This document shows positions 26,526 to 58,528 of a stretch of DNA of 58,528 nt, piece by piece. The stretch's first letter is position 1. Each line of letters starts with the position of its first letter. The notes under the pieces are model-generated. The model ran no database searches, was not told the origin of the DNA, and saw only the letters and a program-made list of their open reading frames with translations. Source of the stretch: Salegentibacter sp. 24 (GTDB taxonomy: Bacteria > Bacteroidota > Bacteroidia > Flavobacteriales > Flavobacteriaceae); assembly GCF_004362395.1 (NCBI RefSeq), contig NZ_SNWE01000025.1, positions 1-58,528 of the forward strand. Direction: 5' to 3'. Both the position numbers and the translations under genes were made by a program.

Positions 26526-27251
26526 TTATAATCGAATCAATGTATTTAAGGTTTCGTCCATTTTTATGCAATTGCAGGAAGTCAGGTTCAATTGCTTTTT
26601 AAACACTTCAAATTCAAGATCGGGGTTATGGATACCCTGTCTTTTCAAATGTTCATTATTTTTAGACAGATCTGTCAATTCTTTCCGATATCCCTGTGCA
26701 TAAGGTGTTTTAAAAAATGTAAAACCTGTTATATAAATTTCTTTACAATCACTCATCAGCACTCCTATTACAGCAGAAAACCCAACCGTTGGAACATAAC
26801 CTTGAAGTTTCTCTTCAATAGATTTGGAAATCTTCGGGGCTAAAATATAGGTCCTTTTTATTTTTAAGTGCCGTTTATAAAAATTAAGGTGTGTTCTTAG
26901 CCCTTTCCGGGAATAGTTTGGGTTTATTAATTTTTCGATCCCCATATTTTCAAATTTTCTAAAATCAATCTCCCCTCCACCGCTAAAGTCATTTTCGTAA
27001 AAACTATGAAATAGGTAAGTGAATTTCGTTCCTAAATAAACCGATTTTTTCTTCTCCCACACCTGTGCAGCTTTATTGATTCTAATCACAATATCATATG
27101 AATCAATGAGTCCCCCGTTTTGTTCTTCAAAAATGGAATTAGCTGCTCCAACTATGGCAACCCGCTTGTTTTTTAAATTCCTTTTAATGTTAAATATCCT
27201 TAGGGATAATAACATTAAAATTAGTGCGTAAATTGTCCTGATAACTTTCAA
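26526..27251 (-). CDS. GT29 sialyltransferase-like protein
   Basis: 241 residues with an N-terminal membrane helix (VIRTIYALILMLLSLRIF). Two segments resemble the sialylmotifs of GT29: an L-like VAIVGAANSI...GLIDSYDIVIRIN (31-59) and an S-like VPTVGFSAVIGVLMS...EIYITGFTFF (153-180). GT29 enzymes use CMP-sugars, and the next three genes upstream include a CMP-sugar synthetase. It overlaps the HAD gene by four bases. Most likely transfers the CMP-activated sugar of this cassette to the glycan. The assignment as GT29 is by motif reading, not by search. Confidence 0.65.
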   Translation of the reverse strand: MKVIRTIYALILMLLSLRIFNIKRNLKNKRVAIVGAANSIFEEQNGGLIDSYDIVIRINKAAQVWEKKKSVYLGTKFTYLFHSFYENDFSGGGEIDFRKFENMGIEKLINPNYSRKGLRTHLNFYKRHLKIKRTYILAPKISKSIEEKLQGYVPTVGFSAVIGVLMSDCKEIYITGFTFFKTPYAQGYRKELTDLSKNNEHLKRQGIHNPDLEFEVFKKQLNLTSCNCIKMDETLNTLIRL

Positions 27252-27871
27252 AAAAATGAACTTATATATTTTTTCCCTTCCTTATTTAAATTTTCGTTAT
27301 TGAAACCATAAAAAACTAAATTATTGGATGCTGCTGCTTCCATGTCATTTTTAGAATCCCCAATTAAACAGAGCTTTGTTGGATCATAACTAAATTCACG
27401 AATCAAATTACTAACAAGTTCTATTTTTGGGGTTGGAGAACCCCAAATCGTCTTAAAATATTGAGAGATGTTCAATTGTTCACATAGATACCTCAATTCC
27501 TTTCCATCCGAACCAGAGACAATATGCATTGTATACTTTTTATAATTTTGTTCTATAAAACTAATTGTTTCGGCAATAAGGTTCTCCCTGGAACAAAGTT
27601 TATTTCTCATTATACTTGAATAGCGGTCTGTAAAGGTTTTCAATTTTTCATCACTTAGAGCCTCTGCTCTGATTGCTTCGAAAAAATACCGAAACTTAAC
27701 ATAGCGGGACAATCCTCCATTTTCCCTATGAAATGCTAAAAGTTGTTCTATTTGTTCTTCTGGATATTTTTCGAGAACTTGCTTAAAACCGTATTCCCTC
27801 ACTGGCATGGAGTTCAAAATAACCCCGTCAAAATCCCATAATATCACTGCTTTATCTGTAAAACCTATCAT
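27248..27871 (-). CDS. HAD-superfamily phosphatase
   Basis: 207 residues, HAD subfamily I with a helical cap. Seen: motif I LWDFDGVILNS (Asp13, Asp15), motif II SGSDG (about 125), and motif IV LIGDSKNDMEAA (about 163-174). By context it probably dephosphorylates a phosphorylated keto-sugar before CMP activation, as KdsC or Neu9P phosphatases do in other ulosonate pathways. It overlaps the cytidylyltransferase gene by 20 bases at its start and the GT29-like gene by four at its stop. Confidence 0.8.
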   Translation of the reverse strand: MIGFTDKAVILWDFDGVILNSMPVREYGFKQVLEKYPEEQIEQLLAFHRENGGLSRYVKFRYFFEAIRAEALSDEKLKTFTDRYSSIMRNKLCSRENLIAETISFIEQNYKKYTMHIVSGSDGKELRYLCEQLNISQYFKTIWGSPTPKIELVSNLIREFSYDPTKLCLIGDSKNDMEAAASNNLVFYGFNNENLNKEGKKYISSFF

Positions 27872-28538
27872 AAACTGCTTCTGCTATTTTAAAATCTTCT
27901 TCGTAATCTATATCCAGGGAAACAATCTTATTCTGGGTGTGTAAAATTGGTTTGGTGCCTGTTCTATTTCCCATCTTATAATTTTCTCTCGCAGTTAAAA
28001 ATATAGCGTTATTTATTTCAAAACAATCAGATAAATCCTGGGTCCTGGGCCAGGACAATTCTGTATTATTATTTACAAATTTACCAGATTTTTTATCCAG
28101 GAGGAATTCTTTATAATCCCTTCCAGAAATCAAGGAATCATAGTTCTTCTTCAATCCCGTATCATAAAATTCAATAGCCTTAATATATTCCAGCGCATCG
28201 CAAAATGGAGAAGTTACATGAGTCCATAAAACTGAATCTCCGGAACATACCATTCCAGCATGCTCTATTAATTCACGGAGGGGCGTAGTTGATTTTCCCA
28301 GTTCACCAGGCCTTTCAATTACTTTAAGGTTCTTTATCTTATCTTTAAAAGAACTAGCAATCTTAAGACTGTCCTCATCATCTGTGGAGACTACAATTTC
28401 ATAGTTCTCCTTTATACTTTCTAACTGCCTAAGTTTTAGGTTTAGCAAACCGCCTTTAATCCCGGCAAAATCACGAGTATTCTTTTTAAGTACCCGTTCA
28501 CTCCCTTTTCTTACCGGTATAAAAATGGAATATTTCAT
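27852..28538 (-). CDS. acylneuraminate-type CMP-sugar synthetase
   Basis: 228 residues, NeuA/KdsB-type cytidylyltransferase. Seen: IPVRKGSERVLKKNTRDF (4-21), the CTP-binding R-GS-R-KN pattern; VSTDDEDSLKIA (about 70), and a C-terminal LDIDYEEDFKIAE common in NeuA-like enzymes. It would make a CMP-activated sugar acid in the cytosol. It overlaps the aldolase gene by four bases and the HAD gene by 20, a strong sign of joint function. No NeuB-, PseI- or KdsA-type synthase is seen in the window to supply a known substrate. Confidence 0.85.
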   Translation of the reverse strand: MKYSIFIPVRKGSERVLKKNTRDFAGIKGGLLNLKLRQLESIKENYEIVVSTDDEDSLKIASSFKDKIKNLKVIERPGELGKSTTPLRELIEHAGMVCSGDSVLWTHVTSPFCDALEYIKAIEFYDTGLKKNYDSLISGRDYKEFLLDKKSGKFVNNNTELSWPRTQDLSDCFEINNAIFLTARENYKMGNRTGTKPILHTQNKIVSLDIDYEEDFKIAEAVYDRFYR

Positions 28539-30067
28539 TTAAAAAAGGAATAAATTGAAGTTTTTCTAATAGTATATTCAGTAGGGGTTACCGACATTAT
28601 CCGGAGGTTTTCCTGCTGGTAATGCCTGAAAACCATCTCATTCTCTATAAATAATTCTTGCTGAGCTTTATTAAATATATTTCCGTAGCCATCATACCCG
28701 ATTAGATAAACTTCCTTAGCTTTAAATGCTTTTGCCGTTTTTAAACAATATTCCGTAACTGAATCTGGAAAATAGTATTCTTCTTCAGGTAATAATTTAT
28801 AAAATACTAGATTATTTAAATCTTCAGAATGTTGATGTTCCGGAGGAATTACCAGGAATCGAGCTTCTAATTCTTCTGGAGATAAATAATTTTTAAGCCT
28901 CTGCAATTCCTTCCCGGGGATTAAATGAATTTGAGGATTTTCTAATCCCTTAAAAATATTAGTGTTTTTTGAGCTGGCAAATATTATTGGAATTTTAGGA
29001 TTATCTTTCAAAAATTCCTGTATGGCAATTTTATGCTGTTCCGCCGAGCTACCCCCTCCTATAATAAATACTTTAGAGCTTTTTTCCAAAGGACTGAAAA
29101 CATTGATATTTAGGACCTTACTCAATTTTTCACCTTTTCCGGTAACATTGTGGATAATATTATCCAAGGAAAAATATCTTTTATTGACCTGCTCTTTTAC
29201 TTTATTCTGAGGCAGGGAAAAACTGCCTGAAACCATATAAGGAAGATTGGTTCCCCAATTGTATTTAGGTTTAAGTTCCAGAAAAGCTTCCAAAACTTCC
29301 AGCAAAACATCAAATTTAACCTCAAGTTTATTACGCTGATATAAGATACTTAATAATAATTCCGTTTTTAGGTTTCCAGCTCCTCTTCCCATACCATCAA
29401 TGGTAGCGTCAATAATATCAGCACCGTTTTGAATAGCTGCCAACGAATTAGCCAGGGCCATTTCAAGGTTATTGTGTCCATGAAAACCCAGACCAATTGT
29501 TAGCTCTGATTTCAAATAAGTGAAAATCCTTTCAACATCTTCTGGAAAAAGTCCGCCGTAAGAATCAACCACGTAGAAATAATCACAAGCTATATTAAGG
29601 GCTTTTACTTGAGAAATTGTGGGAAATTGAACCTCCCATTTACTGGCATACATTAAATTAAAAGCTACCTGAAAGCCAAGCTCTTTGACTGCGGCCGACA
29701 ATTCTATGCCCCGGTCAAAATTTTCGGGGGCTACAGCTAGCCTGACCATTTTAATTTGTCCTATACAGGGTTTTAATAATGGCTTAACTTTGTCTGTCCT
29801 AACATCCTTTTCGTTCAATATTATCGCCAGGTCTTTATTTGTTTGAGCCTTTATTTTTTCAATCACAAAAGCGGGTAAATAAAAATGTCTCCCAGAATAA
29901 TTTCCTTTTGGAGGGGACCTATAGCCTATCTCTATAACATCAATGGGCAATTTGTTCAACGCGGAAAAATAAGTTGTCACCAAATCTTCATTAAAATCCC
30001 AATTGGTATAATACCCTCCATCACGTAAGGTGCAATCTAGTATTAACGGAAAGTTATTTGAATTCAT
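28535..30067 (-). CDS. DRE-TIM aldolase fused to a C-terminal MptE/DUF115-like domain
   Basis: 510 residues. Residues about 1-280 form an HMGL-like/DmpG-type metallo-aldolase: LDCTLRDGGYYTNWDF (10-25), the HGHNN metal site (196-200) and DATIDGMGRGAGN. A different domain follows from about 310 (VFIIGGGSSAEQHKIAI, then VYLIGYDGYGNIF), resembling the MptE/DUF115 or CMP-sialyltransferase-like Rossmann folds. DmpG aldolases join or split pyruvate and an aldehyde, so this enzyme could build a keto-acid sugar. It is the first gene of the overlapping aldolase-CMP transferase-HAD-GT29 cassette. The function is inferred; no close characterised homologue is recalled. Confidence 0.75.
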   Translation of the reverse strand: MNSNNFPLILDCTLRDGGYYTNWDFNEDLVTTYFSALNKLPIDVIEIGYRSPPKGNYSGRHFYLPAFVIEKIKAQTNKDLAIILNEKDVRTDKVKPLLKPCIGQIKMVRLAVAPENFDRGIELSAAVKELGFQVAFNLMYASKWEVQFPTISQVKALNIACDYFYVVDSYGGLFPEDVERIFTYLKSELTIGLGFHGHNNLEMALANSLAAIQNGADIIDATIDGMGRGAGNLKTELLLSILYQRNKLEVKFDVLLEVLEAFLELKPKYNWGTNLPYMVSGSFSLPQNKVKEQVNKRYFSLDNIIHNVTGKGEKLSKVLNINVFSPLEKSSKVFIIGGGSSAEQHKIAIQEFLKDNPKIPIIFASSKNTNIFKGLENPQIHLIPGKELQRLKNYLSPEELEARFLVIPPEHQHSEDLNNLVFYKLLPEEEYYFPDSVTEYCLKTAKAFKAKEVYLIGYDGYGNIFNKAQQELFIENEMVFRHYQQENLRIMSVTPTEYTIRKTSIYSFFK

Positions 30068-30085: not shown

Positions 30086-30997
30086 TTATTTATTTAAAGG
30101 AATATTTAAGATATAATTATCATTAAAAAAATCAATTAAAGCTTTTTTATGATAGTAAATAAATTTTTTGCCATATTTAAAACCATATCTGAATGACCAC
30201 AGGGATTTTATTACAATTTTGAAAATATTGTAAGCCAATGCAAAAAAGTATCTATTCTCTTTTAAAATGAATAGAAGGTTACGCGAGCTAAAATATTGTC
30301 GCCTCAAATCTCCAGCTCTTGTACCTGACTTTTTTACATAACGATAACTATCATCTCCATTTTTATCAAGTTGTCTTTTTTTATACCAGGATTTTGCATC
30401 CACAAAAATTCCAGCCCCCTGTTTTTTAAATTTTAAACATATATCGAGATCTTCAAAAGCAAAAAAAAGTTTTTCTTCAGGATAAGTTTTTTCATTCAAA
30501 TAATGAGTATTGATTAGCATACCGTGTCCTCCGGGTACCATATCCACTTCAATAATATCTTTTGCCTTTAACTGTTTATTGGAAAGTGAGCGAATCGTAC
30601 CGGTCCATTTATTAAACATTCCACCCTTACCTCCAATAATTCCAGCAACAATCCCCTGTCTTTCCAATTTTTCTTTACAAATAAAAAGCTCCGAGCACAC
30701 TTGATTATCTCTGGGTGGATTATCATCATCACCCCAAAAAATCCATTGATAATTTAATGCTTGAAGTTTTTTTAAACCCAGTTTTGAACCTCCTGCTGGT
30801 CCTGCATTATATCCGGTTTTAAAATAGTTGACTTCAGCATACTTTTTATCCAAATTTAATTTGTCAATAGAATCATCAAGGCTATTGTCTATAATAAGAA
30901 TATATTCAGGAGGTTCAGATTGCGATCTAAGAACATCTATATATTTAATTAAAGCCAAAGGCCTTTCAAAACAAATTATAAAAGCAGCATATCTCAA
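30086..30997 (-). CDS. GT2 family glycosyltransferase
   Basis: 303 residues, GT-A fold of the rhamnosyl/galactofuranosyl-transferase kind. Seen: ILIIDNSLDDS (about 33-43), YNAGPAGGSKLGLKK (about 65), the metal-binding FWGDDDNPP (about 92-100) and a later EDLDICLKFKKQG motif. The C-terminus carries positively charged hydrophobic segments that may touch the membrane. Probably adds one sugar to the repeat unit. It lies 18 bases upstream of the aldolase gene in transcription order and 10 bases after the capsule protein gene. Confidence 0.8.
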   Translation of the reverse strand: MRYAAFIICFERPLALIKYIDVLRSQSEPPEYILIIDNSLDDSIDKLNLDKKYAEVNYFKTGYNAGPAGGSKLGLKKLQALNYQWIFWGDDDNPPRDNQVCSELFICKEKLERQGIVAGIIGGKGGMFNKWTGTIRSLSNKQLKAKDIIEVDMVPGGHGMLINTHYLNEKTYPEEKLFFAFEDLDICLKFKKQGAGIFVDAKSWYKKRQLDKNGDDSYRYVKKSGTRAGDLRRQYFSSRNLLFILKENRYFFALAYNIFKIVIKSLWSFRYGFKYGKKFIYYHKKALIDFFNDNYILNIPLNK

Positions 30998-31007
30998 ATT
31001 TAAATAG

Positions 31008-32468
31008 TTAAGCTATTCTTATCTTAAAGGCCCAGTAAATCAGTTGTATAATTTTGGCCTTTAACCTTTGGGTAAATTTATAAAAGAAAACCCGTTTTCC
31101 TTTTAAGAAAATACCTTTACCTTTTCTATCCTCAAAGTAATATTTCGCTTTTACCCCTCCGTCTAAATAATAATATCCAAATTTCAGTATATCTTGAGAT
31201 GCTTTTGAAGATAGCCTGGCACTGAGCAAATCTTTAATGTCAAGCTTACTATCAGGTACATACACAAAGTCCTGGTAAAAATAATAACATTTCCCCAGCA
31301 AAATAACGGGTTTACCAATAAGTGATGCTTCCATCCCGGTTGTTGAACCAAACACTACCACTTTTGAAGCTATCTTCATCAAAGCATAGGTATGTATACT
31401 ACTTGTGGGGCCGATAACATGTACATTAGGGTAAATTTGATCAAGCTTTTTAATATAGGATACATAATCAAAATTAACATACTGTAAATTTGGATGCATC
31501 CTTATGATCAGGTTGGCTTGTTTAAAGTCCTTCCCGACCAATTCCGCTAAGTAGGAAAGCCCTTCATTTTGATCTTTGAAAAAAGGGTTTTTAAAATGAT
31601 CCCCTAGAGCGGCATACTCATCGTCTGAACTCGTAAAAACAACTATATTCTCACTCTTTTCATCAATAAAAGACGGTAATTCTCCTTCCGTTTGTGTTGC
31701 TACATATGACGGCATATTTACCCCTTCCCCTATTCTCTTTCTATCAAAAAACTCCCGACCTAATTCTTCTTTCTCATTTACAGTCAGCGGAGAATCTTTC
31801 CAATTTTTTTCCACATTTTGCCATCTCGCCTTTATATCTTGAGGCAGGGTATTTTTAAAGAATTCAATGTTTCCTCCAAGACTAGGTCTTTCCAGGTTCC
31901 AACAATCTATACCTTGTGCTAAACTTGCTTTTAAAACCGCCCTTACATATTCCTGTCTGCCGTTAAAATTATATACTATATTAAAATTATACTTCGCGAT
32001 ATAATCTCTGATTCCCAAGTAGAGACAAAGGGCATTCTCAACCAGTTCCCTTACCGGAAATTCGTCCATCTTGGTTAAATACCTATCCCGGGTTATCGAA
32101 ATATAAGTGCTTAGGCTAGCCTCCCCTACTTCAAAATTATCATATACCAGATCAAAATAATTTCCTTGATATTCTTTAAAAAGCCTATTCGCAAGTAACC
32201 TATGCTCTTTTTTAATTATATCATCAATCTTTATATGCTGATAGTTCCCTTCAATAAGCTGTAAAGAATTCTTAACCCCGGTCTTACATCTATAACAAAT
32301 ATCAGGTTGTTTTTCCTTATTAAAATAACAAAGATCAAAGCTATTTGAACAGGTTAAATAGTGTATATCAGCTTCAGGGAATTCATCGATTTGAGTTTGT
32401 AGCCAGTCTGGCATGATACCTCGGGAGTAGCTATTAATTCCATAAATTGCCGCTATAAGTATCTTCAT
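31008..32468 (-). CDS. KpsC/KpsS-like capsule polysaccharide biosynthesis protein
   Basis: 486 residues, GT-B-like with the signature KVVVFGSTTGMEASLIGKPVILLG (about 375-400), typical of Caps_synth/KpsS-type and CDP-glycerol glycerophosphotransferase-like proteins. Upstream it has IIRMHPNLQY, another family mark. KpsC and KpsS use CMP-Kdo, and the CMP-sugar cassette is a few genes away, so a CMP-linked donor is possible but unproven. It overlaps the ABC transporter gene by four bases. Confidence 0.65.
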   Translation of the reverse strand: MKILIAAIYGINSYSRGIMPDWLQTQIDEFPEADIHYLTCSNSFDLCYFNKEKQPDICYRCKTGVKNSLQLIEGNYQHIKIDDIIKKEHRLLANRLFKEYQGNYFDLVYDNFEVGEASLSTYISITRDRYLTKMDEFPVRELVENALCLYLGIRDYIAKYNFNIVYNFNGRQEYVRAVLKASLAQGIDCWNLERPSLGGNIEFFKNTLPQDIKARWQNVEKNWKDSPLTVNEKEELGREFFDRKRIGEGVNMPSYVATQTEGELPSFIDEKSENIVVFTSSDDEYAALGDHFKNPFFKDQNEGLSYLAELVGKDFKQANLIIRMHPNLQYVNFDYVSYIKKLDQIYPNVHVIGPTSSIHTYALMKIASKVVVFGSTTGMEASLIGKPVILLGKCYYFYQDFVYVPDSKLDIKDLLSARLSSKASQDILKFGYYYLDGGVKAKYYFEDRKGKGIFLKGKRVFFYKFTQRLKAKIIQLIYWAFKIRIA

Positions 32469-42267: not shown

Positions 42268-43884
42268 TTATTTCTTAATTTTTCCCTGGGCATCAATTAC
42301 CGTAAATCCCTCTTCGAAATTTAAAGTATGAGCGGCTAGTAAGTCCTTATCCCATTTTGGTAATATATCACTAAGCTTTTCCTCAATGAATTCAGTAGTA
42401 GATAATTGTTTAATTTCATTAATCTGTATCCCATATCCGTATTTGGGAGCACCGATTTGTGTTGGTCTTAATAACCTACCGTTTTCCTTGAAAATTTTCC
42501 CGGCCGGTCGCGCACCCCTAACATCCAAACTCAAGGGATTCAAGGGATGAGAAACCCAATTTTCTGAATCCAATTCTTTAGAATAGTACAGGTGTAAATA
42601 TTGATCTCTATTTCCTCCTTCAGATAATTTTTCAGTTCCGAAAAGATACCAGTAGCCTTCATGAAAATATAGGCTGGCATCATAAATTTGCTTGTTACTA
42701 AAAATTTTTTGGTATTTTTTCCATCTTTCAGGAAACTCTTCACTCTTATATAACCAAAGTTCATTGGCATCAGCTGACTCAGGTAGCATATAATAATTTG
42801 AATCCTCCTTAAAAATAAATGGATAGGACAAATGATATTCTTCATTTAGTACTTCTACCGGTCTCTCATTTAATAAGGTTCCTTTTTCATCGAATTGAAA
42901 GAGACTAATGTGACCATTTCCAGTACCTATTTTTATTTCTTCAAAAAATAAATAGAACCTTTGGTTTTCTTTAATTATAAATGGATCGGCCCAGTCATAT
43001 CCCTTAGGAGGATATAGAGTCTTATACCTGAAAATGTTCTTTTCTAAAAAAGAGTCTTTTTTAAATTTATATAGAATATACCATTGGGGAAAGGAAAATT
43101 TTTCTTTAGCTACTTCTAAAATCCTTCTACTCCAGAAAAGTAGTAATATTTTTACTGAAGTACTATTGTCTGGATCTTTATAAAGTGGATGGCAGTAAAA
43201 TTGAAATGAACTTTTTTCTACTTCATATTTCAATATGCCACGGCTTAATTCATCTAGGGCCAAATTAAACAATTCTATCCCTGCCCAAAATGCTTCGTTT
43301 TTATTTCGGTAAAAAGATGTGGTATTGGTTTTTATAAAAGACCGTTTTATAACTTTTCCGCCATCTAGCTCCTCAGATAACTTTTGAAGCGTTATGCCTG
43401 TAACATCTTCCCTGTTAGCTACTTCCCAAAAAGCAGGCGGGCCACCTCGGTTTATACGATTATCACCGTGGTGAAGTGACCATACACCATTTTTTGCTGC
43501 ATCTAAAATTCCTCCCCTCAAAATACCAAAACCAAACCGGATCATAATATCTAAATCCAGATCCTTAATCCTTTCTATGTCTTTTATTGCAACCCTATAA
43601 CTAAATCGTTTTTCTTCTCCTTCTATATAATAAATAGGTAAATCCTTTTCGTTTTTTTCAAGTGAAATCTCTTTAAATACATCTTTCTTTACAGGAAAAA
43701 TTTTTCGATCTAATACCTGTGAAGCACGATAGAAAAATGAACCAGGAACTACGTATTTAGGTTTATTAGCATTTATTATAAAAGTAGTGAGTTCCAGATT
43801 CGGATGGGATTTTATGTAATTTATAATTTCATTTTGCCACCTCTTTATTTTTAGATTATCCAATAAAAGTCCTATTCTAACCAT
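42268..43884 (-). CDS. formyltransferase-like domain fused to a beta-propeller (GINT1-like) domain
   Basis: 538 residues. The N-terminal 235 or so resemble the formyl_trans fold: GVWSLHHGDNRINRGGPP (133-150) with a conserved His138, and EELDGGKV (171-178) with Asp174 at the place of the catalytic Asp of Fmt/ArnA-type enzymes. The usual Asn before the His is Ser. The C-terminal 300 residues are aromatic-rich blade repeats (YDWADPFII, LSYPFIF, YDASLYFHEGYWYLFG) like the five-bladed GH43/glucosamine-inositolphosphorylceramide transferase domain. Probably modifies or transfers a sugar of the repeat unit. Exact reaction unknown. Confidence 0.7.
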   Translation of the reverse strand: MVRIGLLLDNLKIKRWQNEIINYIKSHPNLELTTFIINANKPKYVVPGSFFYRASQVLDRKIFPVKKDVFKEISLEKNEKDLPIYYIEGEEKRFSYRVAIKDIERIKDLDLDIMIRFGFGILRGGILDAAKNGVWSLHHGDNRINRGGPPAFWEVANREDVTGITLQKLSEELDGGKVIKRSFIKTNTTSFYRNKNEAFWAGIELFNLALDELSRGILKYEVEKSSFQFYCHPLYKDPDNSTSVKILLLFWSRRILEVAKEKFSFPQWYILYKFKKDSFLEKNIFRYKTLYPPKGYDWADPFIIKENQRFYLFFEEIKIGTGNGHISLFQFDEKGTLLNERPVEVLNEEYHLSYPFIFKEDSNYYMLPESADANELWLYKSEEFPERWKKYQKIFSNKQIYDASLYFHEGYWYLFGTEKLSEGGNRDQYLHLYYSKELDSENWVSHPLNPLSLDVRGARPAGKIFKENGRLLRPTQIGAPKYGYGIQINEIKQLSTTEFIEEKLSDILPKWDKDLLAAHTLNFEEGFTVIDAQGKIKK

Positions 43885-51524: not shown

Positions 51525-52163
51525 TTAGGAACCATTTCTAATTTTTATAATTTTAGCAGGCACCCCTACTGCTACACAGTTATCGGGCAAACTCTTGGTA
51601 ACTACCGTCCCTGCACCTACCGTTACATTTTTGCCTATTTTAATTCCTGGAAGCACGGTAGCGTTGGCACCGATAGACGTGAAAGCTCCTACTTTTACAT
51701 TTCCAAGTAGAATAACACCAGGGGAAAGCTCAACAAAATCTTCAATAATACAGTCGTGTGTAATATTAACGTTGTAATATACAAGACAACCTTTACCTAA
51801 TTTTACTGAATTAGAAATAACCGCATTGGCTAAGACGGTACAGCCATCTCCTATGGAGACGTTATAGTTACCAATAATAGCCTTATTAGAAATAGATGAC
51901 ATAAGTTGTCCTCCAATTTTGGAAAATTTTTCTTGTAATTTTAATCTTAAATTTGGGATTCCTAAGCCAAGGAAAAAACGGTGATCTGAACTTTCTAAAT
52001 AATCCTTTGCTGCTTCTAAATTTCTTAAAATTGGAAATCTTTGATATACCAAATTAGGAGAATTTAAATTTACATCATCATAAAAGACCAAATTTTGTTT
52101 TTCCTCTGAACTAAAATTTTGTAACAATTCAGTTGCGAATCCACCAGCGCCTAATATTAACAT
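51525..52163 (-). CDS. LbH acetyltransferase (VioB/PglD-like)
   Basis: 212 residues: N-terminal LILGAGGFATELLQNF, then a left-handed beta-helix of hexapeptide repeats (from about residue 95: IGDGCTVLANAVISNS, LSPGVILLGNVKVGAFTSIG, VTVGAGTVVTKSL). The His in NITHDCIIEDF takes the place of the catalytic base. Probably acetylates the 4-amino group made by the next enzyme. It overlaps the aminotransferase gene by seven bases. Confidence 0.8.
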   Translation of the reverse strand: MLILGAGGFATELLQNFSSEEKQNLVFYDDVNLNSPNLVYQRFPILRNLEAAKDYLESSDHRFFLGLGIPNLRLKLQEKFSKIGGQLMSSISNKAIIGNYNVSIGDGCTVLANAVISNSVKLGKGCLVYYNVNITHDCIIEDFVELSPGVILLGNVKVGAFTSIGANATVLPGIKIGKNVTVGAGTVVTKSLPDNCVAVGVPAKIIKIRNGS

Positions 52164-53254
52164 ATAGTTTCCAGTATAATTTTCGAAATTAATTGGATTT
52201 TCTCTTGGCTCAATCTATAATAAAGTGGAAGACACATTATTCTTTTAGAAATATCCTCGGAAATTGGAGCGGGTTGATAATTCACAATTTCCGTATAGGA
52301 ATTTACAGAAGGATAAAAATACCTTCGAGGGAAAATTTCCTGTCTATTCAGATTCCTCTCAACTTTCAACAACTGCTCTTCAGAACTAAAAATTACTGGG
52401 AAATATGAATAATTTGTTTCATTTTCTTTAATTTTTTGGAATTTCAAGAATTTTGATTTTCCTAATAGCTTTTTATAAAGCAAATATTTAGTTTTTCTAT
52501 CGTCCAAAACCTTGTCAAAATATTTTAAATTCGCGATACCCAGCGAGGCATGAATTTCCGTCATTTTTCCATTAAATCCATCTTCAACAATTTCTTTATC
52601 TCGATTGTGTCCAAAAAATCTAATTCTTTCCAATTTTTCTTGCAGATCCGCAGAATTTGTAATACAAGCTCCTCCTTCTCCAGTATTAAATAATTTTGTA
52701 GCATGTAAGCTAGTAGCAGAAATATCTCCATACTGTAGCAAACTCTTTCCTTTATATAAACTACCTATAGCGTGAGCAGCATCATAAATGACCTTTAAAC
52801 CGTGTTTTTTAGCCAATGATTCAATTTTCTCCACATTACAAGCAGTTCCAAAAACATGGACTGGCATAATAGCTACAGTATCTTTAGTAATAAGATTTTC
52901 AATCTTGTCCTCATCAATGTTTAAAGTTTCAGGATTTATATCACAAAAAACCGGCTTACATCCTTCCCAGTTGATGGCACTTATTGTAGCTACCCAGGTA
53001 AAAGGAGTAGTTATAATTTCTCCCTTTAATCCTAATGCTTTAATAGACATTTGCAAGGCAACAGTTCCATTTAAGACTAAAGTAAAATTAGAAACCTCTA
53101 ACTTTTCTTTCATTCTTTCTTCCAATAATTGAACTTTAGGTCCATTATGAGTAAGAATTCCTGAATCCCAGACTTCCTTTAATAACTCCGAATATTCTAC
53201 TAGAGGAGCAATTGTTGGTTGAGTCACAAAAATTGGTGTACTTATCTTATTCAT
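52157..53254 (-). CDS. VioA/FdtB-like dTDP-4-keto-sugar aminotransferase
   Basis: About 365 residues, DegT/DnrJ/EryC1 fold. Seen: the start NKISTPIFVTQPTIAPL, LNGTVALQMSIKAL, VIYDAAHAIGSLY with the cofactor Asp, and the PLP lysine in SLHATKLFNTGEGGACIT (about 180), the context seen in VioA/FdtB-like enzymes. Start chosen at the ATG at 53254, which overlaps the upstream stop by eight bases; an ATG at 53275 adds MKLKLNL and overlaps more. Expected to aminate C4 of a dTDP-keto-sugar. Confidence 0.8.
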   Translation of the reverse strand: MNKISTPIFVTQPTIAPLVEYSELLKEVWDSGILTHNGPKVQLLEERMKEKLEVSNFTLVLNGTVALQMSIKALGLKGEIITTPFTWVATISAINWEGCKPVFCDINPETLNIDEDKIENLITKDTVAIMPVHVFGTACNVEKIESLAKKHGLKVIYDAAHAIGSLYKGKSLLQYGDISATSLHATKLFNTGEGGACITNSADLQEKLERIRFFGHNRDKEIVEDGFNGKMTEIHASLGIANLKYFDKVLDDRKTKYLLYKKLLGKSKFLKFQKIKENETNYSYFPVIFSSEEQLLKVERNLNRQEIFPRRYFYPSVNSYTEIVNYQPAPISEDISKRIMCLPLYYRLSQEKIQLISKIILETIC

Positions 53255-54224
53255 TAGATTTAATTTTAATTTCATTTAAAAGTCTGGATTGGTTAATATT
53301 ATCCAAATATTCCTGGTTCTTATCTCTAATTCCTGTTATAAGATCATAAAAATAGAGTAACATATTTCTAAAGTGGTTGTCTTCTTTTAATTGTATCTCT
53401 CGTAATCCATCTTGATTTGTTTCTAAATTTACTACCGGTTGAAATCCACTCTTTGCTGTGAAAATTCTATTTGAATATAATTTACCTTTGGATCCAATTA
53501 CCTCAAGATTACATTGATAGTAATTATCAAAGCCAAATGCAATTTGAGAAAAAAGATTCCCATTATTCTGTTGTAAAAAGGCACCGCCCCAAATATCTAC
53601 ATCAAACCCTTCTTTTTTATTTAATACAGCCGAAGAAACATAAATATTATTACCCATTAATATTTGGGATAATTTTAATGGATACGCCCCTGCATCCAGT
53701 AAGGCTCCTCCACCTAACGAATTATTGTAACGAATATTTTCCTTGTCTGGAAAGGGAGGAAAACAAAATGTGCTTCTTATTATTCGAAGATCTCCGATAG
53801 TACCTTTATCTAATATTTTTAATATGGCGTTTAATTGAGAGTGAAATCTAAATTGAAAGTTTTCAACTAATACTAGATTTGAATTTCTTGCAATTTTATT
53901 TAGTTCTATAACTTCTTGCTCATTACAAGCCAGGGATTTTTCTACTAATACGTGCAAACCTTTTTGAAGAGATTTTTTAACCCATTCAAAATGGAGAGCA
54001 TTAGGCAAAGGGATATAAATTGCGTCTAATACACTTTTATCCAGAATGCTTTCATATCCCTTAAATACTTTCCCTTCAAAACTTACCTGTTCAGGATTTC
54101 TTCTGCTTGCAATTCCAACAAAATCGAAATTATTATTTAGAATTTTTAATTCAGGAACAAAAGATCTCAAGGCTATATTTGCTGCTCCCAGTACACCTAT
54201 TTTTATTTTTTTATTTTCCTTCAT
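53247..54224 (-). CDS. Gfo/Idh/MocA-family dTDP-sugar 3-ketoreductase
   Basis: 325 residues. Seen: an N-terminal NAD(P) motif IKIGVLGAANIALRSFVPEL and the VEKSLACNEQE segment (about 92-102), where Ser replaces the usual Pro of EKP. The His/Tyr-containing GGALLDAGAYPLKL follows later. In dTDP-deoxysugar pathways such proteins (for example KijD10) reduce the C3 keto group after 2,3-dehydration. Four-base overlap with the dehydratase gene supports that link. A different substrate cannot be excluded. Confidence 0.75.
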   Translation of the reverse strand: MKENKKIKIGVLGAANIALRSFVPELKILNNNFDFVGIASRRNPEQVSFEGKVFKGYESILDKSVLDAIYIPLPNALHFEWVKKSLQKGLHVLVEKSLACNEQEVIELNKIARNSNLVLVENFQFRFHSQLNAILKILDKGTIGDLRIIRSTFCFPPFPDKENIRYNNSLGGGALLDAGAYPLKLSQILMGNNIYVSSAVLNKKEGFDVDIWGGAFLQQNNGNLFSQIAFGFDNYYQCNLEVIGSKGKLYSNRIFTAKSGFQPVVNLETNQDGLREIQLKEDNHFRNMLLYFYDLITGIRDKNQEYLDNINQSRLLNEIKIKSNE

Positions 54225-55642
54225 AAATTATAAGATAAAGCAGCCATGAGACTTCTGGCTTGAATGTTAATATAATTGTTATGTTTTATGAAGGTTTGTA
54301 ACTGATTATAGGTCATCCAAATAAAATTTTCTGACGTTTCTTCCGGAAAATCATCATTAGCTAAAATGATCATATTCCTATTTTGCTCCTGATAAAATCT
54401 GCCTCCTTCTTCTGATTGAAAGGTGTCGAATATAATTTCATCTTTTTTTACATTTATAACGTAATCTAGATACGGTAGGTTTTTAATGGAATAATCATTT
54501 TTATAATTCCCTGTAAGAGACTGAACAGTAGGTGCAAATTCTATTATATCAAAATTACCACATTCCAATTTAGCCTGAACCAGGAAATGCAATACTCCAT
54601 CTATATTTTTGCAGACAAATGCACAGATTCCTTCTTGTACTGGTTTTACCATCGGCTGTGTCCAGCTTACAACTTCTCTATTGCCTATTTTTATATCTGT
54701 CGCAATAATTTCAAAATATTTATTTTCTATATGCCGGATCTTCGATTCTTCAATTATCCAGTCATTCAAAGAAAATAAAGGTATTTGAGTAATTTGTAAA
54801 TCAAACTTACATTTTTGATGAGTAATAAATAAGATTATATCATTGATAGAATTGACACCTTCGATATCAAAAGAGCTAGACTTTAGAAGACCATTAGCAA
54901 ACTTACTTATGGGTAAGCCTGAAAAACCTCTAATTAAATTTAAACTTTCGAAATTAAAACCTCCAATTGGAATGCCAGAGAGTACCGTTCGAGTATCCAT
55001 ATTAACGATATTATCTAATTGCATTAATTCCTTTATTTGAGCTAATGTTAACCAAATAAAATTTTCTAAGACCTCAATATCTTCCTCGATTGTGATTATA
55101 ATATTCCTGTTTCTTTTTTTTAAAAATCGCCCACCTTGCTCAGATTGAAGCTGATCTAACAAAATATTATTTTTATTTGCTTTTTGAAAATATTCCAAAT
55201 ATGGTGGTGGATTTCCTTTATGTACTCGAAGATAATTACTTTTTGTGGCCTGAAGGGTAGGTGATAATTGTACAAAATTTATATTACCGGGCTCGACTTT
55301 TGCCTGCATCAAAAAATGCAACACACCGTTAAATTCTTTGGTTATTAACCCTAGATAACCTATTTCAGGTTGATTAATAATAGGTTGATTCCATGTATTG
55401 ACAGCACCATAATTCGTGGTAATTTCTAGACCATCGATAGAAAAGAAATGCCCAGACTCATGCTTAAGTGAGTTATTATCAAAATCCCAATTTTTTAATT
55501 TAGAAAACGGGATTTGATCAATCTCAACTTCTATAACTTCATTTTGTCTTCTGATCCAGTTCAGAGCGAAATCTGTTGATACAAGGGATTTATCTTTCTC
55601 TAAGAGACTTTTCAAAAACTTTTGATTAAAACCTATTTTCAT
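54221..55642 (-). CDS. dTDP-4-keto-6-deoxyhexose 2,3-dehydratase
   Basis: 473 residues made of two similar halves, the hallmark of the EvaA/TylX3 family. Repeat 1 has NTWNQPIINQPEIGYLGLIT and FLMQAKVEPGNINFVQLSPT; repeat 2 has VSWTQPMVKPVQEGICAFV and FLVQAKLECGNFDIIEFAPT. It removes water from dTDP-4-keto-6-deoxyglucose, giving a 3,4-diketo-2,6-dideoxy sugar. Next genes: a Gfo/Idh ketoreductase and an aminotransferase. Its substrate needs an RmlB, but only a decayed rmlB lies nearby. Confidence 0.85.
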   Translation of the reverse strand: MKIGFNQKFLKSLLEKDKSLVSTDFALNWIRRQNEVIEVEIDQIPFSKLKNWDFDNNSLKHESGHFFSIDGLEITTNYGAVNTWNQPIINQPEIGYLGLITKEFNGVLHFLMQAKVEPGNINFVQLSPTLQATKSNYLRVHKGNPPPYLEYFQKANKNNILLDQLQSEQGGRFLKKRNRNIIITIEEDIEVLENFIWLTLAQIKELMQLDNIVNMDTRTVLSGIPIGGFNFESLNLIRGFSGLPISKFANGLLKSSSFDIEGVNSINDIILFITHQKCKFDLQITQIPLFSLNDWIIEESKIRHIENKYFEIIATDIKIGNREVVSWTQPMVKPVQEGICAFVCKNIDGVLHFLVQAKLECGNFDIIEFAPTVQSLTGNYKNDYSIKNLPYLDYVINVKKDEIIFDTFQSEEGGRFYQEQNRNMIILANDDFPEETSENFIWMTYNQLQTFIKHNNYINIQARSLMAALSYNL

Positions 55643-55686
55643 TACAATTTTTTCTTATAATATAATACCTAATCGTATATTCTAAT

Positions 55687-56559
55687 TTACTCTAATATGG
55701 TTTCACCCATCTCCCTTAAGTATTGTCCATATTTAGACTTACCATATTGTTTGTGCAATTTTGCTAACTGTTGTTTGTTAATAAATTTACTTAGAAATGC
55801 TACTTCTTCTATACATCCGATCATAGTACTTTGACGGTTTTGTAAGACCCTAATAAATTCGGTCGCATCATCAAGTGATTCAACTGTACCTGTATCAAAC
55901 CAACTCATACCGCGATTCATAACTCCTACTTCCAGATTATTATTTTGTAAGTAAATTTCATTAATTGCAGTAATCTCTTTTTCTCCTCGCGCCGAAGGTT
56001 TTACTTCTTTAGCATACTCCACTACATTATTATCATAAAAATACAAACCGGGTATAGCATATTTGGATTTAGGGATTTTAGGTTTCTCTTCTATACTTTT
56101 TACTTTTTGATTTTCATCAAACTCTACCACCCCATAGCGTTGGGGATCTTTAACTGGATAAGCAAAGATAGACGCTCCATTAATATTTAATTTACTTCTT
56201 AATAAATTGACAAGACCATTTCCATGGAAAATATTATCGCCTAAAGCTAAAGCCACTTTCTCATTGCCAATAAATTTTTCGCCAATTAAAAAAGCTTCTG
56301 CAAGTCCATTTGGTTCTTCCTGTATTGCATATTGGAAATCACAACCAACCTGGGAACCATCTCCTAATAATTTCTGGAAAGCTTCCTGGTCATGAGGTGT
56401 TGTGATGAACAAGATTTCTCTAATTCCTGATAACATCAAAACAGATAATGGATAATAGATCATTGGTTTATCATATACAGGAAGAAGTTGTTTACTTACC
56501 GCAATAGTAATTGGATATAAACGTGTTCCACTACCTCCAGCTAGAATTATTCCTTTCAT
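55687..56559 (-). CDS. rmlA: glucose-1-phosphate thymidylyltransferase
   Basis: 290 residues. Makes dTDP-glucose from dTTP and glucose-1-phosphate. Seen: GIILAGGSGTRLYPIT (3-18), KQLLPVYDKPMIYYPLSVLM, LALGDNIFHG (about 110), ARGEKEITAINEIYL and GMSWFDTGTVESLDDAT. A complete and typical RmlA. It lies eight bases downstream of the decayed rmlB (56568-57130) and 44 bases upstream of the 2,3-dehydratase gene, so it feeds the dTDP-sugar branch of this locus. Confidence 0.95.
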   Translation of the reverse strand: MKGIILAGGSGTRLYPITIAVSKQLLPVYDKPMIYYPLSVLMLSGIREILFITTPHDQEAFQKLLGDGSQVGCDFQYAIQEEPNGLAEAFLIGEKFIGNEKVALALGDNIFHGNGLVNLLRSKLNINGASIFAYPVKDPQRYGVVEFDENQKVKSIEEKPKIPKSKYAIPGLYFYDNNVVEYAKEVKPSARGEKEITAINEIYLQNNNLEVGVMNRGMSWFDTGTVESLDDATEFIRVLQNRQSTMIGCIEEVAFLSKFINKQQLAKLHKQYGKSKYGQYLREMGETILE

Positions 56560-57338: not shown

Positions 57339-57992
57339 CTACTTTGAAATAAAGTTTTGATAATATTTTAAGTCATCTTCGTTAAAAACTTTTTTCCAAC
57401 TATCTTTAGATCCTTTATTGGGTAATAATCCTAAAGGTTTTTCTATAATTTTTATATCTGTATTGTTAAATTTTTTATAATATTGCATTGGAAAACAATG
57501 TAACAATATTTTTTTATAAACTTTTCCAGGATTCTCTAATAGTTCTTCGTAAGAAATTAAAACAATATTTCCTTTAAGTCGACTCCACTCCTCAACGTGT
57601 TTACTCCAGTGTTCAAAAATGGTTAATCCTTCTCCTATTTTATTTCCAGGGCTACCTTTCCAGTCTAATGGAGTGCGTAAAAATTCAGAAAAGCTTAATC
57701 CACTCATTTCTCTATTAAGAAAATTAGGAGTTTTCCAAATGGAATAAGCTACAGCTCTCCCATCTCTGTAAATATAGAGAAGGGGTTTAGGTTTTAATCT
57801 AAAGCTTCGTTTTGGAAAGTGGTGTCCTCCGAATAATTGACCGTAAGGATTCAATTCTTTAGTTTTTCTATTCGACCAATGCCCCCAAGTTAAATCTTTA
57901 ACACTAAGATCTCTATTCGGATAAAAGTTATTTGCAACAAAGGCTTCCAGAAAATGTGTGCCAGATCTAGGATGCGAAAATATTTTAATCAT
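57339..57992 (-). CDS. sulfotransferase-domain protein
   Basis: 217 residues. Seen: the 5'-phosphosulfate-binding loop FSHPRSGTHFLE (about 4-15) and a later IYRDGRAVAYSIWK (about 93-106), the 3'-phosphate-binding RDxRxxAxS-like motif of PAPS sulfotransferases. Near the C-terminus LISYEELLENP is also typical. Would transfer sulfate from PAPS to a sugar. CysN, which helps make the activated sulfate, is encoded directly upstream with an 18-base gap. Cytosolic; acceptor unknown. Confidence 0.8.
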   Translation of the reverse strand: MIKIFSHPRSGTHFLEAFVANNFYPNRDLSVKDLTWGHWSNRKTKELNPYGQLFGGHHFPKRSFRLKPKPLLYIYRDGRAVAYSIWKTPNFLNREMSGLSFSEFLRTPLDWKGSPGNKIGEGLTIFEHWSKHVEEWSRLKGNIVLISYEELLENPGKVYKKILLHCFPMQYYKKFNNTDIKIIEKPLGLLPNKGSKDSWKKVFNEDDLKYYQNFISK

Positions 57993-58010
57993 TACAACTG
58001 ATTTTTAAAT

Positions 58011-58528
58011 TTAAACTATCATTCCCGCAGCCACGGTTTCATTTGTGCTTTCATCAATTAGTATAATGCTACCGGTATTACGGTTTTCTCGGTAAGTATC
58101 CAACATCATCCTTCTGGTAGTTCTTATTTTAACCCTTGCAATATCGTTCATATCAAGGGTCGGATCATTTTTATCCCTTTCAAAAGTATTGATATCCATT
58201 TTATAAACCACTTCTTTGATTATGGCACGTTCTTCGTGAGTAGTGTGCAGAATGGTATATTTCGCCCTGGGCTTTGCCGGATCATTATTAAGCCAACATA
58301 ACATTACATCAAATTCCTGCTCCATTTCAGGCTGATTGTTTTTTCTTACAATCATATCACCCCTACTAACATCAATATCATCTTCAAGGGTCAATGATAT
58401 ACTCATAGGAGCATAAGCCTCCTGAACTTGCTCTTCCCCTGTATTAATCGATTTGATTTTAGATTGAAATCCAGATGGTAAAACAGCTACGTCATCCCCA
58501 ACTCTGTAAATTCCGCTGGCTATTCTTC
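58011..58528 (-). CDS. cysN: sulfate adenylyltransferase subunit 1, C-terminal part (cut by window edge)
   Basis: The frame is open through the right window edge, so only about the last 171 codons are seen. They match the second and third beta-barrel domains of the EF-Tu-like GTPase subunit CysN: RIASGIYRVGDDVAVLPSGF, TLEDDIDVSRGDMIV, MLCWLNNDPAKPRAKYTI and the C-terminal RKN-TGSIILIDESTNETVA region. The G-domain lies outside. Works with CysD to make adenosine phosphosulfate. Whether it is fused to an APS kinase cannot be judged here, although the C-terminus ends right after the barrel. Confidence 0.85.
   Translation of the reverse strand, partial: RIASGIYRVGDDVAVLPSGFQSKIKSINTGEEQVQEAYAPMSISLTLEDDIDVSRGDMIVRKNNQPEMEQEFDVMLCWLNNDPAKPRAKYTILHTTHEERAIIKEVVYKMDINTFERDKNDPTLDMNDIARVKIRTTRRMMLDTYRENRNTGSIILIDESTNETVAAGMIV

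Follow-up and report, generated by a model that had tools for sequence, protein, structure and literature searches.

A Bacteroidota surface-polysaccharide cassette that may build a CMP-activated ulosonic acid with a DRE-TIM aldolase in place of NeuB

Contig NZ_SNWE01000025.1 of Salegentibacter sp. 24 (assembly GCF_004362395.1) carries four overlapping genes which, in our reading, would represent a mobile cassette for a sugar nucleotide, resident in loci for surface polysaccharides, in which an ulosonic acid built by a DRE-TIM-type aldolase would be dephosphorylated, activated with cytidine monophosphate (CMP) and transferred. We give this reading a probability of about 0.6. Its core, a CMP-keto-acid pathway operating without the synthase NeuB, is well supported by genomics, while all of its chemistry is what we infer from sequence. 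The whole stretch analysed here, hereafter the window, covers 58.5 kb (58,528 nucleotides) of a 4.15 Mb genome and includes a long minus-strand exopolysaccharide locus, within which the cassette occupies positions 26526-30067, also on the minus strand. It comprises a DRE-TIM-type (HMGL-like) aldolase (28535..30067, 510 amino acids; PF00682, 100.5 bits, cut-off 29), a CMP-ulosonate synthetase-like cytidylyltransferase (27852..28538, 228 amino acids; PF02348 CTP_transf_3, 28.6 bits, cut-off 22.6), a haloacid dehalogenase (HAD) family phosphatase (27248..27871, 207 amino acids; PF13419 HAD_2, 66.5 bits, cut-off 23.8) and a glycosyltransferase of family 29 (GT29; 26526..27251, 241 amino acids with a TTG start; PF00777 Glyco_transf_29, 49.8 bits, cut-off 23). 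An earlier interpretation made from the letters alone, here called the sequence-only reading, had described four overlapping minus-strand genes with overlaps of 4, 20 and 4 bases; open reading frames and Pfam agree with it, all four products scoring over the curated cut-offs.

Results

Conservation and spread of the cassette

A scan of contigs with the window aldolase retrieved 60 loci. Bacteroidota, taken broadly so as to include relatives of Balneola as well as gut Bacteroidales, account for nearly all of them; one Malaciobacter and one SAR86 locus were the members from outside this group. A cytidylyltransferase lies in the gene run of the aldolase in 58 of the 60 loci, a frequency that rules out a chance neighbourhood, and at the two loci lacking it (L055 and L056) the contig ends within or just after the aldolase gene. 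The HAD family of the window recurs in 47/60 loci, on the opposite strand in L042 and L054. When 395 genomes sampled across the phylum were searched, the aldolase appeared in nine (~2%), in ten copies including that of the window, and each of the nine copies outside the window (seven new, two repeats of earlier loci) adjoined both a cytidylyltransferase and a HAD gene. Since the aldolase occurs in about 2% of the sampled genomes and all sampled copies keep their partner genes, aldolase, cytidylyltransferase and phosphatase are a rare and patchy set that is inherited as a unit. The same three genes are present among glycosyltransferases on a Leisingera plasmid, where they are annotated as aldolase catalytic domain protein, CMP-Kdo synthetase and HAD hydrolase. 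Genes for glycosyltransferases, flippases and dTDP-rhamnose abound in the loci, under names that we mostly assigned from sequence. The cassette has no constant gene for sugar modification, which suggests that its product is a common precursor. A phage origin was also considered and rejected, as the phage collection gave eight records and none of them covered 80% of the query. In genome G162, which is not among the NeuB matches listed, a single contig bears two cassettes (L076 and L077) separated by about 20 kb.

Occurrence of the cassette without NeuB

No phosphoenolpyruvate (PEP)-dependent synthase of the NeuB or KdsA type was found in the cassette locus, and the window contains no match to PF03102 (NeuB). 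The sequence-only reading had named a NeuB gene elsewhere in the genome as a point that would tell against it, and the genome does hold two, both on contig C7 together with two other cytidylyltransferases; one of these overlaps a NeuB gene, and no cytidylyltransferase was seen in the 3.7 kb surrounding the second NeuB. The PF00793 genes of the same genome lie on contigs C18 and C5. Despite the two C7 genes, the distribution across the family argues against a dependence on NeuB. Co-occurrence of the cassette genes without NeuB, which the sequence-only reading had proposed to look for in whole genomes, was observed: in 50 of the 60 cassette genomes NeuB was present in 36 (72%) and absent in 14, most of them drafts. 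NeuB is missing from the complete chromosome to which L021 belongs, and this chromosome holds two CTP_transf_3 genes (that of the cassette and one elsewhere) and two PF00793 genes, one KdsA-sized and the other of the size of 3-deoxy-arabino-heptulosonate 7-phosphate (DAHP) synthase. Four of the nine aldolase genomes in the phylum sample also lack NeuB, namely G248, which scored zero, and G162, G104 and G173, which show none among the matches listed; G248 and G162 consist of one contig each. Among the 14 NeuB-less cassette genomes, ten carry a KdsA-sized PF00793 gene (272-290 amino acids), and G019, G036, G038 and G047, genomes that may be incomplete, carry neither this gene nor NeuB.

These data bear directly on the possibility that the aldolase takes a NeuB product as its substrate or takes part in the turnover of sialic acid, splitting or re-forming ulosonic acids that were made elsewhere, in which case the cassette would need a NeuB somewhere in the genome. 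The presence of NeuB in those 36 genomes and in that of the window would fit such a role; however, the phylum at large has NeuB at an equal rate (295/395, 75%; Fisher p 0.73), one phmmer query detected it in just four of the 60 flanks, and the absence in 14/50 together with this base rate speaks against dependence. Closed genomes without NeuB, among them the L021 chromosome, largely refute the idea, which we consider very unlikely.

An aldolase-like DRE-TIM enzyme with its own active site

The HMGL-like domain of the aldolase (approximately residues 9-315) is closest to 3dxi, a solved structure deposited as a putative aldolase (7.7e-95) whose sequence corresponds, by eye, to that of Phocaeicola vulgatus L037. 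The next four best structures are 4-hydroxy-2-oxovalerate aldolases (1e-20 to 2.6e-15), matches to isopropylmalate and homocitrate synthases are also found (4.4e-25 and weaker), and the nearest relatives of the protein come from Salegentibacter, at 71 and 63%. When aligned to 1nvm, R15, D16, H196 and H198 are matched by Arg, Asp, His and His, which we take to be the Asp/His/His metal ligands with their neighbouring Arg, and Tyr19 sits opposite a His that is presumably catalytic in 1nvm. R15, D16, Y19, H196 and H198 are invariant in all 59 full-length aldolases (58 relatives plus that of the window, the cut proteins of L055 and L056 being excluded from residue counts), and a GGYYxxWDF stretch is conserved among the same sequences. 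The "DmpG-type" label given in the sequence-only reading cannot be kept: the score against 4-hydroxy-2-oxovalerate aldolase (TIGR03217), still the best curated family, is 106 bits for a cut-off of 286, Tyr19 replaces the presumed catalytic His, and the C-terminal domain is a different one, the Pfam scan having given no DmpG-type C-terminal match in the protein. These three features rule out a DmpG-type aldolase, and we describe the enzyme, judged by its sequence, as an aldolase-like DRE-TIM protein with a family-specific active site.

The second, C-terminal domain (approximately residues 322-510), absent from the description in the sequence-only reading, was modelled over its 189 residues with a predicted local distance difference test score (pLDDT) of 92. 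It reached 18.1 bits against Pfam MptE-like, under the cut-off of 34.6, and fold comparison of the model matched MptE of M. jannaschii (8sd5, E 1e-4, query TM-score (TMq) 0.49), the Maf glycosyltransferase 5mu5 (E 1.2e-4, TMq 0.66) and, more weakly, human ST8SiaIII (5bo9, E 3.5e-3, TMq 0.47), while unrelated barrels appeared at similar E-values but with TMq of about 0.3 (PdxJ 3f4n, for instance, at E 3.1e-3 and TMq 0.29). The predicted domain thus resembles the MptE/Maf/sialyltransferase-like fold. The plasmid homologues L068 and L069 match the aldolase over the barrel only, and no annotated cytidylyltransferase was found within 6 kb of either in a gene table that is itself incomplete; the C-terminal domain may for this reason accompany CMP-activation. 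Considering its likeness to transferases that use CMP-sialic acid, it may sense or hold the CMP-product.

Two other roles for this enzyme have to be considered. It might come from a degradation pathway and stand in the locus by accident, and homologues without the C-terminal domain do occur in other contexts, such as L069 with its neighbouring amidohydrolase and ring-cleavage genes. Nevertheless, the 58/60 relatives accompanied by a cytidylyltransferase lie in loci dense in glycosyltransferase, flippase and dTDP-rhamnose genes, and this conserved gene order refutes degradation as a general explanation, leaving it scarcely credible. Alternatively, the enzyme could perform a Claisen-type condensation or make another non-sugar acid, as relatives of isopropylmalate synthase do, the non-carbohydrate acid being attached through a CMP intermediate. 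The similarity to isopropylmalate and homocitrate synthases, as well as the active-site Tyr and the GGYYxxWDF stretch, both unlike the aligned pyruvate aldolases, would agree with such a reaction. But 4-hydroxy-2-oxovalerate aldolases provide the top family match and, 3dxi aside, the four closest structures, and partner genes found in some loci and described below recall enzymes of 2-keto-3-deoxy acids, if below curated cut-offs. We regard a non-sugar acid as quite unlikely.

Two families of cytidylyltransferase alternate beside one aldolase

The cytidylyltransferase of the window, modelled with a pLDDT of 94, had NeuA 6ifd as its best Foldseek match (1.2e-17), and 28 of its top 30 matches are titled NeuA, CMP-Kdn, CMP-Pse or CMP-Kdo synthetases; the remaining two (3oam) are titled merely cytidylyltransferase, and IspD appears from rank 31 on. 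A profile built from 26 relatives matched NeuA 1eyr at 2.8e-21. The score against the PseF model TIGR03584 was 44.8 bits and did not pass the cut-off of 205.7, while that of PF02348 was passed. By predicted fold and by profile the protein is a CMP-ulosonate synthetase. A study of CMP-N-acetylneuraminic acid (Neu5Ac) synthetases describes their nucleotide- and Mg-binding residues and a Gln104 that affects Neu5Ac binding (PMC2901514). Through our own alignment to 6ifd, R10, K19, D209 and D211, invariant in 26/26 sequences of its own type (type A, defined below), would correspond to the nucleotide- and Mg-binding residues given there, and a His occupies the place of the 6ifd Gln which we equate with Gln104, hinting at a sugar different from Neu5Ac.

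Grouping by BLAST (single linkage, >110 bits) separated a NeuA/PseF-like type A, to which the window enzyme belongs, from a KdsB-like type B. In the 60 gene runs, type A stands alone in 28, type B alone in 26 and both together in two (side by side in L014, with type A upstream in L061), a third type is found in two (L007 and L013) and none in two, so that type B is present in 28 altogether. Two type-B proteins, those of L020 and L040, were scored against curated models; they passed NF009905 (285.4 and 279.7 bits, cut-off 255) and NF003952 (240.2 and 259.3, cut-off 193) and did not pass NF003948 (144.3 and 164, cut-off 281) or TIGR00466 (135 and 151.8, cut-off 155.2). When 67 aldolases were placed on a tree and 62 of them given a type (32 A, 30 B; L007, L013, L014, L076 and L077 unlabelled, and L061 labelled B despite the type A gene upstream), the two types exchange at least 14 times in what is a quick tree with long end branches (L054, L057, L061 and L067) and no shuffled control; the count is 13 with L080 unlabelled and becomes 14 as L080 scores as type B. 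One such switch separates the sister aldolases L048 and L082. Because of these recurrent switches, the data suggest that both cytidylyltransferase families activate one common product of the aldolase; on this view the product would be an ulosonic acid.

The KdsB-like type also raises another scenario, in which ordinary 3-deoxy-manno-octulosonic acid (Kdo) from the housekeeping KdsA would be activated by a capsule-specific CMP-Kdo synthetase, leaving the aldolase to make or trim some other building block. Such synthetases are known, 1h6j being among the Foldseek matches, and type B in 28/60 runs, the two subfamily cut-offs passed by both proteins tested and the KdsA-sized gene in 10/14 NeuB-less genomes would all agree with it. 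Against this, a NeuA/PseF-like enzyme is alone in the run in 28/60 loci and in the window, whose enzyme carries the His at the Gln104-equivalent described above; the aldolase is the constant member of the cassette, deprived of a cytidylyltransferase only at the two contig-end loci; the HAD enzyme would duplicate KdsC; and four genomes, though maybe incomplete, have no KdsA-sized gene. Kdo activation is possible for the type-B cassettes, and as an account of the cassette in general we find it unlikely.

Phosphatase, kinase and second aldolase

In the HAD protein, D13, D15, S119, K149, D172 and D176 are invariant among the 17 sequences aligned out of 48 found. Its catalytic residues, like those of the cytidylyltransferase, are intact, and it probably takes off a phosphate ahead of CMP-activation. 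Seven of the 60 loci, all from Bacteroidales (L037, L039, L040, L044, L046, L047 and L062), show a PfkB kinase in its place, the best solved relative of which is the 2-keto-3-deoxygluconate (KDG) kinase 2afb (6.2e-90), with scores below curated NCBIfam cut-offs; this exchange amounts to one change on the aldolase tree. Four of the 60 loci (L007, L011, L013 and L027) and both G162 copies (L076 and L077) have the genes for DRE-TIM aldolase and cytidylyltransferase separated by one for an HpaI/GarL-like aldolase, which likewise scores below curated cut-offs and whose presence requires at least four changes on the same tree. The KDG-kinase-like and HpaI/GarL-like genes support a product of the 2-keto-3-deoxy acid type and, since they recur, may hint at a short chain; taken together with epimerase-like genes (of the short-chain dehydrogenase/reductase type) in the neighbourhood, they point to 2-keto-3-deoxy acid chemistry and to no single chain length.

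Sialyltransferase-type neighbours

Members of the GT29, POLYST and GT52-type families use CMP-sialic acid in known cases. The GT29 protein of the window matched the sialyltransferase 2wml at 4.8e-5 and is a candidate for the transferase of the CMP-activated acid. Genes of these three families lie up to 6 kb from the cassette in 23/60 loci, a figure obtained from gene clusters whose sizes agree with the Pfam tallies, plus L046 and L047 tested singly. By cluster, GT29 occurs in the window and eight loci, POLYST in 13 loci and L046, and GT52 in L047. A Pfam scan of 32 such neighbours gave, at E 0.001, matches to PF07388 (POLYST, 14), PF00777 (GT29, 10), MptE-like (2) and CST-I (1), tallies that name no members and are to be read beside POLYST clusters of 14 proteins and a GT29 cluster of nine. 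In the phylum sample GT29 passed the Pfam cut-off in one of the 395 genomes, that of the window itself, and reached E 0.001 in three. POLYST was detected in five of the nine aldolase genomes vs 8/386 of the others (Fisher p 1.9e-6), and in three of those five the gene is no more than about 6 kb away from the cassette.

Other genes of the window

Directly upstream of the cassette, a family 2 glycosyltransferase (30086..30997, minus strand; PF00535, 25.2 bits, cut-off 23.3) is a component of the polysaccharide locus, and the capsule-synthesis-like protein further upstream (31008..32468, minus strand; PF05159, 31.6 bits, cut-off 20) belongs to a gene cluster (cluster 15) found in 7/60 relative loci, eight with the window, and is a possible partner of the cassette. 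At 51525-56559, again on the minus strand, an RmlA-like gene (named by eye) forms a row with genes for an NDP-hexose 2,3-dehydratase (PF03559, 508 bits), a Gfo/Idh oxidoreductase, a DegT aminotransferase and a PglD-like acyltransferase, an arrangement suggestive of a pathway to a 2,3-dideoxy amino sugar within the same polysaccharide locus. The protein encoded at 42268-43884 (minus strand) matches GINT1_N (PF24793, 129.5 bits), a family named after glucosamine inositolphosphorylceramide transferase, in its C-terminal half and is formyltransferase-like, by eye, in its N-terminal half. At the end of the window (57339-58528, minus strand), a sulfotransferase (PF00685) adjoins an incomplete frame that is CysN-like by eye, and the polysaccharide of the locus may be sulfated.

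Discussion

In the pathway that we propose, a divalent metal on the aldolase would convert pyruvate into its enolate, which would add to a sugar aldehyde, most likely phosphorylated, to give the phosphate of a 2-keto-3-deoxy (ulosonic) acid. The HAD enzyme would then remove the phosphate, the cytidylyltransferase would form the CMP-sugar, and the GT29-like protein, or a POLYST, GT52 or MptE-like protein in other loci, would move the sugar onto the polysaccharide, with the C-terminal domain of the aldolase possibly monitoring or retaining the CMP-product. What the sequences show is the order and the families of the genes, their conservation, intact catalytic residues and how often NeuB is lacking; the substrates, the direction of the reaction, the product, the sequence of steps, the mobility and the task of the C-terminal domain are what we infer. 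The make, dephosphorylate, activate and transfer module of the sequence-only reading finds support in the fold of the cytidylyltransferase (28/30 matches), in the sialyltransferase-type neighbours and in the occurrence of the cassette without NeuB.

Several observations weigh against this reading. A Tyr is invariant opposite the presumed catalytic His of DmpG, and the reaction may therefore differ. A KDG-kinase-like gene stands where a phosphatase would be expected in the seven Bacteroidales loci, a reversal for which we offer no explanation, and six of the 60 loci have neither HAD nor kinase, three of these being at contig ends. A second aldolase of the HpaI/GarL type is odd if the DRE-TIM enzyme already makes the acid, and both partner genes leave the task of the latter less certain. 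As for transfer, 37/60 loci have no counted GT29, POLYST or GT52 gene in their 6 kb flanks, POLYST lies away from the cassette in two of the five aldolase genomes that carry it, and the other eight aldolase genomes of the phylum sample have no GT29 over the cut-off. Finally, NeuB accompanies most cassettes in the genome, that of the window included.

Compared with known systems, the cassette shares with the Kdo pathway (KdsA, KdsC, KdsB and Kdo transferases) the order of steps and, in many loci, a KdsB-like enzyme, but its C-C bond would come from a metal-dependent DRE-TIM aldolase and not from the PEP-dependent KdsA, and its HAD protein scores far under the cut-off of the KdsC-family model (15.6 vs 106.95 bits). 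With the nonulosonic acid pathways (NeuB/LegI/PseI, NeuA/PseF and sialyltransferases) it has in common the NeuA-like fold with its metal-binding aspartates and the nearby GT29 or POLYST transferases, whereas its locus has no NeuB and needs none in the genome, it keeps no gene for sugar modification as a constant member and the PseF cut-off is far from being reached. The aldolase resembles DmpG/BphI in its HMGL-like domain and in the conserved, presumed metal ligands and Arg, and departs from them in the Tyr that replaces the presumed catalytic His, in the MptE-like C-terminal domain and in the polysaccharide context. 3dxi belongs to the same family, although its solved chain of 320 residues is devoid of the C-terminal domain, and its cassette (L037), unlike that of the window, carries a KDG-kinase-like gene, with HAD missing from the flank. 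What appears to be new is a variant of the CMP-keto-sugar pathway with a different C-C bond-forming enzyme. Among the open-access papers listed in our literature searches, no title or abstract opening described such a cassette, and passages of PMC10433991 contain nothing on it.

A bolder extension, which we put forward tentatively and hold to be doubtful, is that the product is a CMP-2-keto-3-deoxy acid of a chain length new among CMP-sugars, for instance a C6 acid formed by joining pyruvate to a glyceraldehyde unit. This would define a class of nucleotide sugars with its own C-C bond-forming enzyme, used by marine and gut Bacteroidota in their surface glycans, and the aldolase would sense the CMP-product through a sialyltransferase-like domain.

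If the proposed pathway is correct, it would constitute a second natural route to surface sugars of the sialic acid or Kdo kind, in which a metal-dependent aldolase replaces the PEP-dependent synthases, and searches for sialic-acid-like sugars based on NeuB would miss such cassettes. It would also provide a function for the solved structure 3dxi and predict the donor sugar of a bacterial group of GT29 enzymes.

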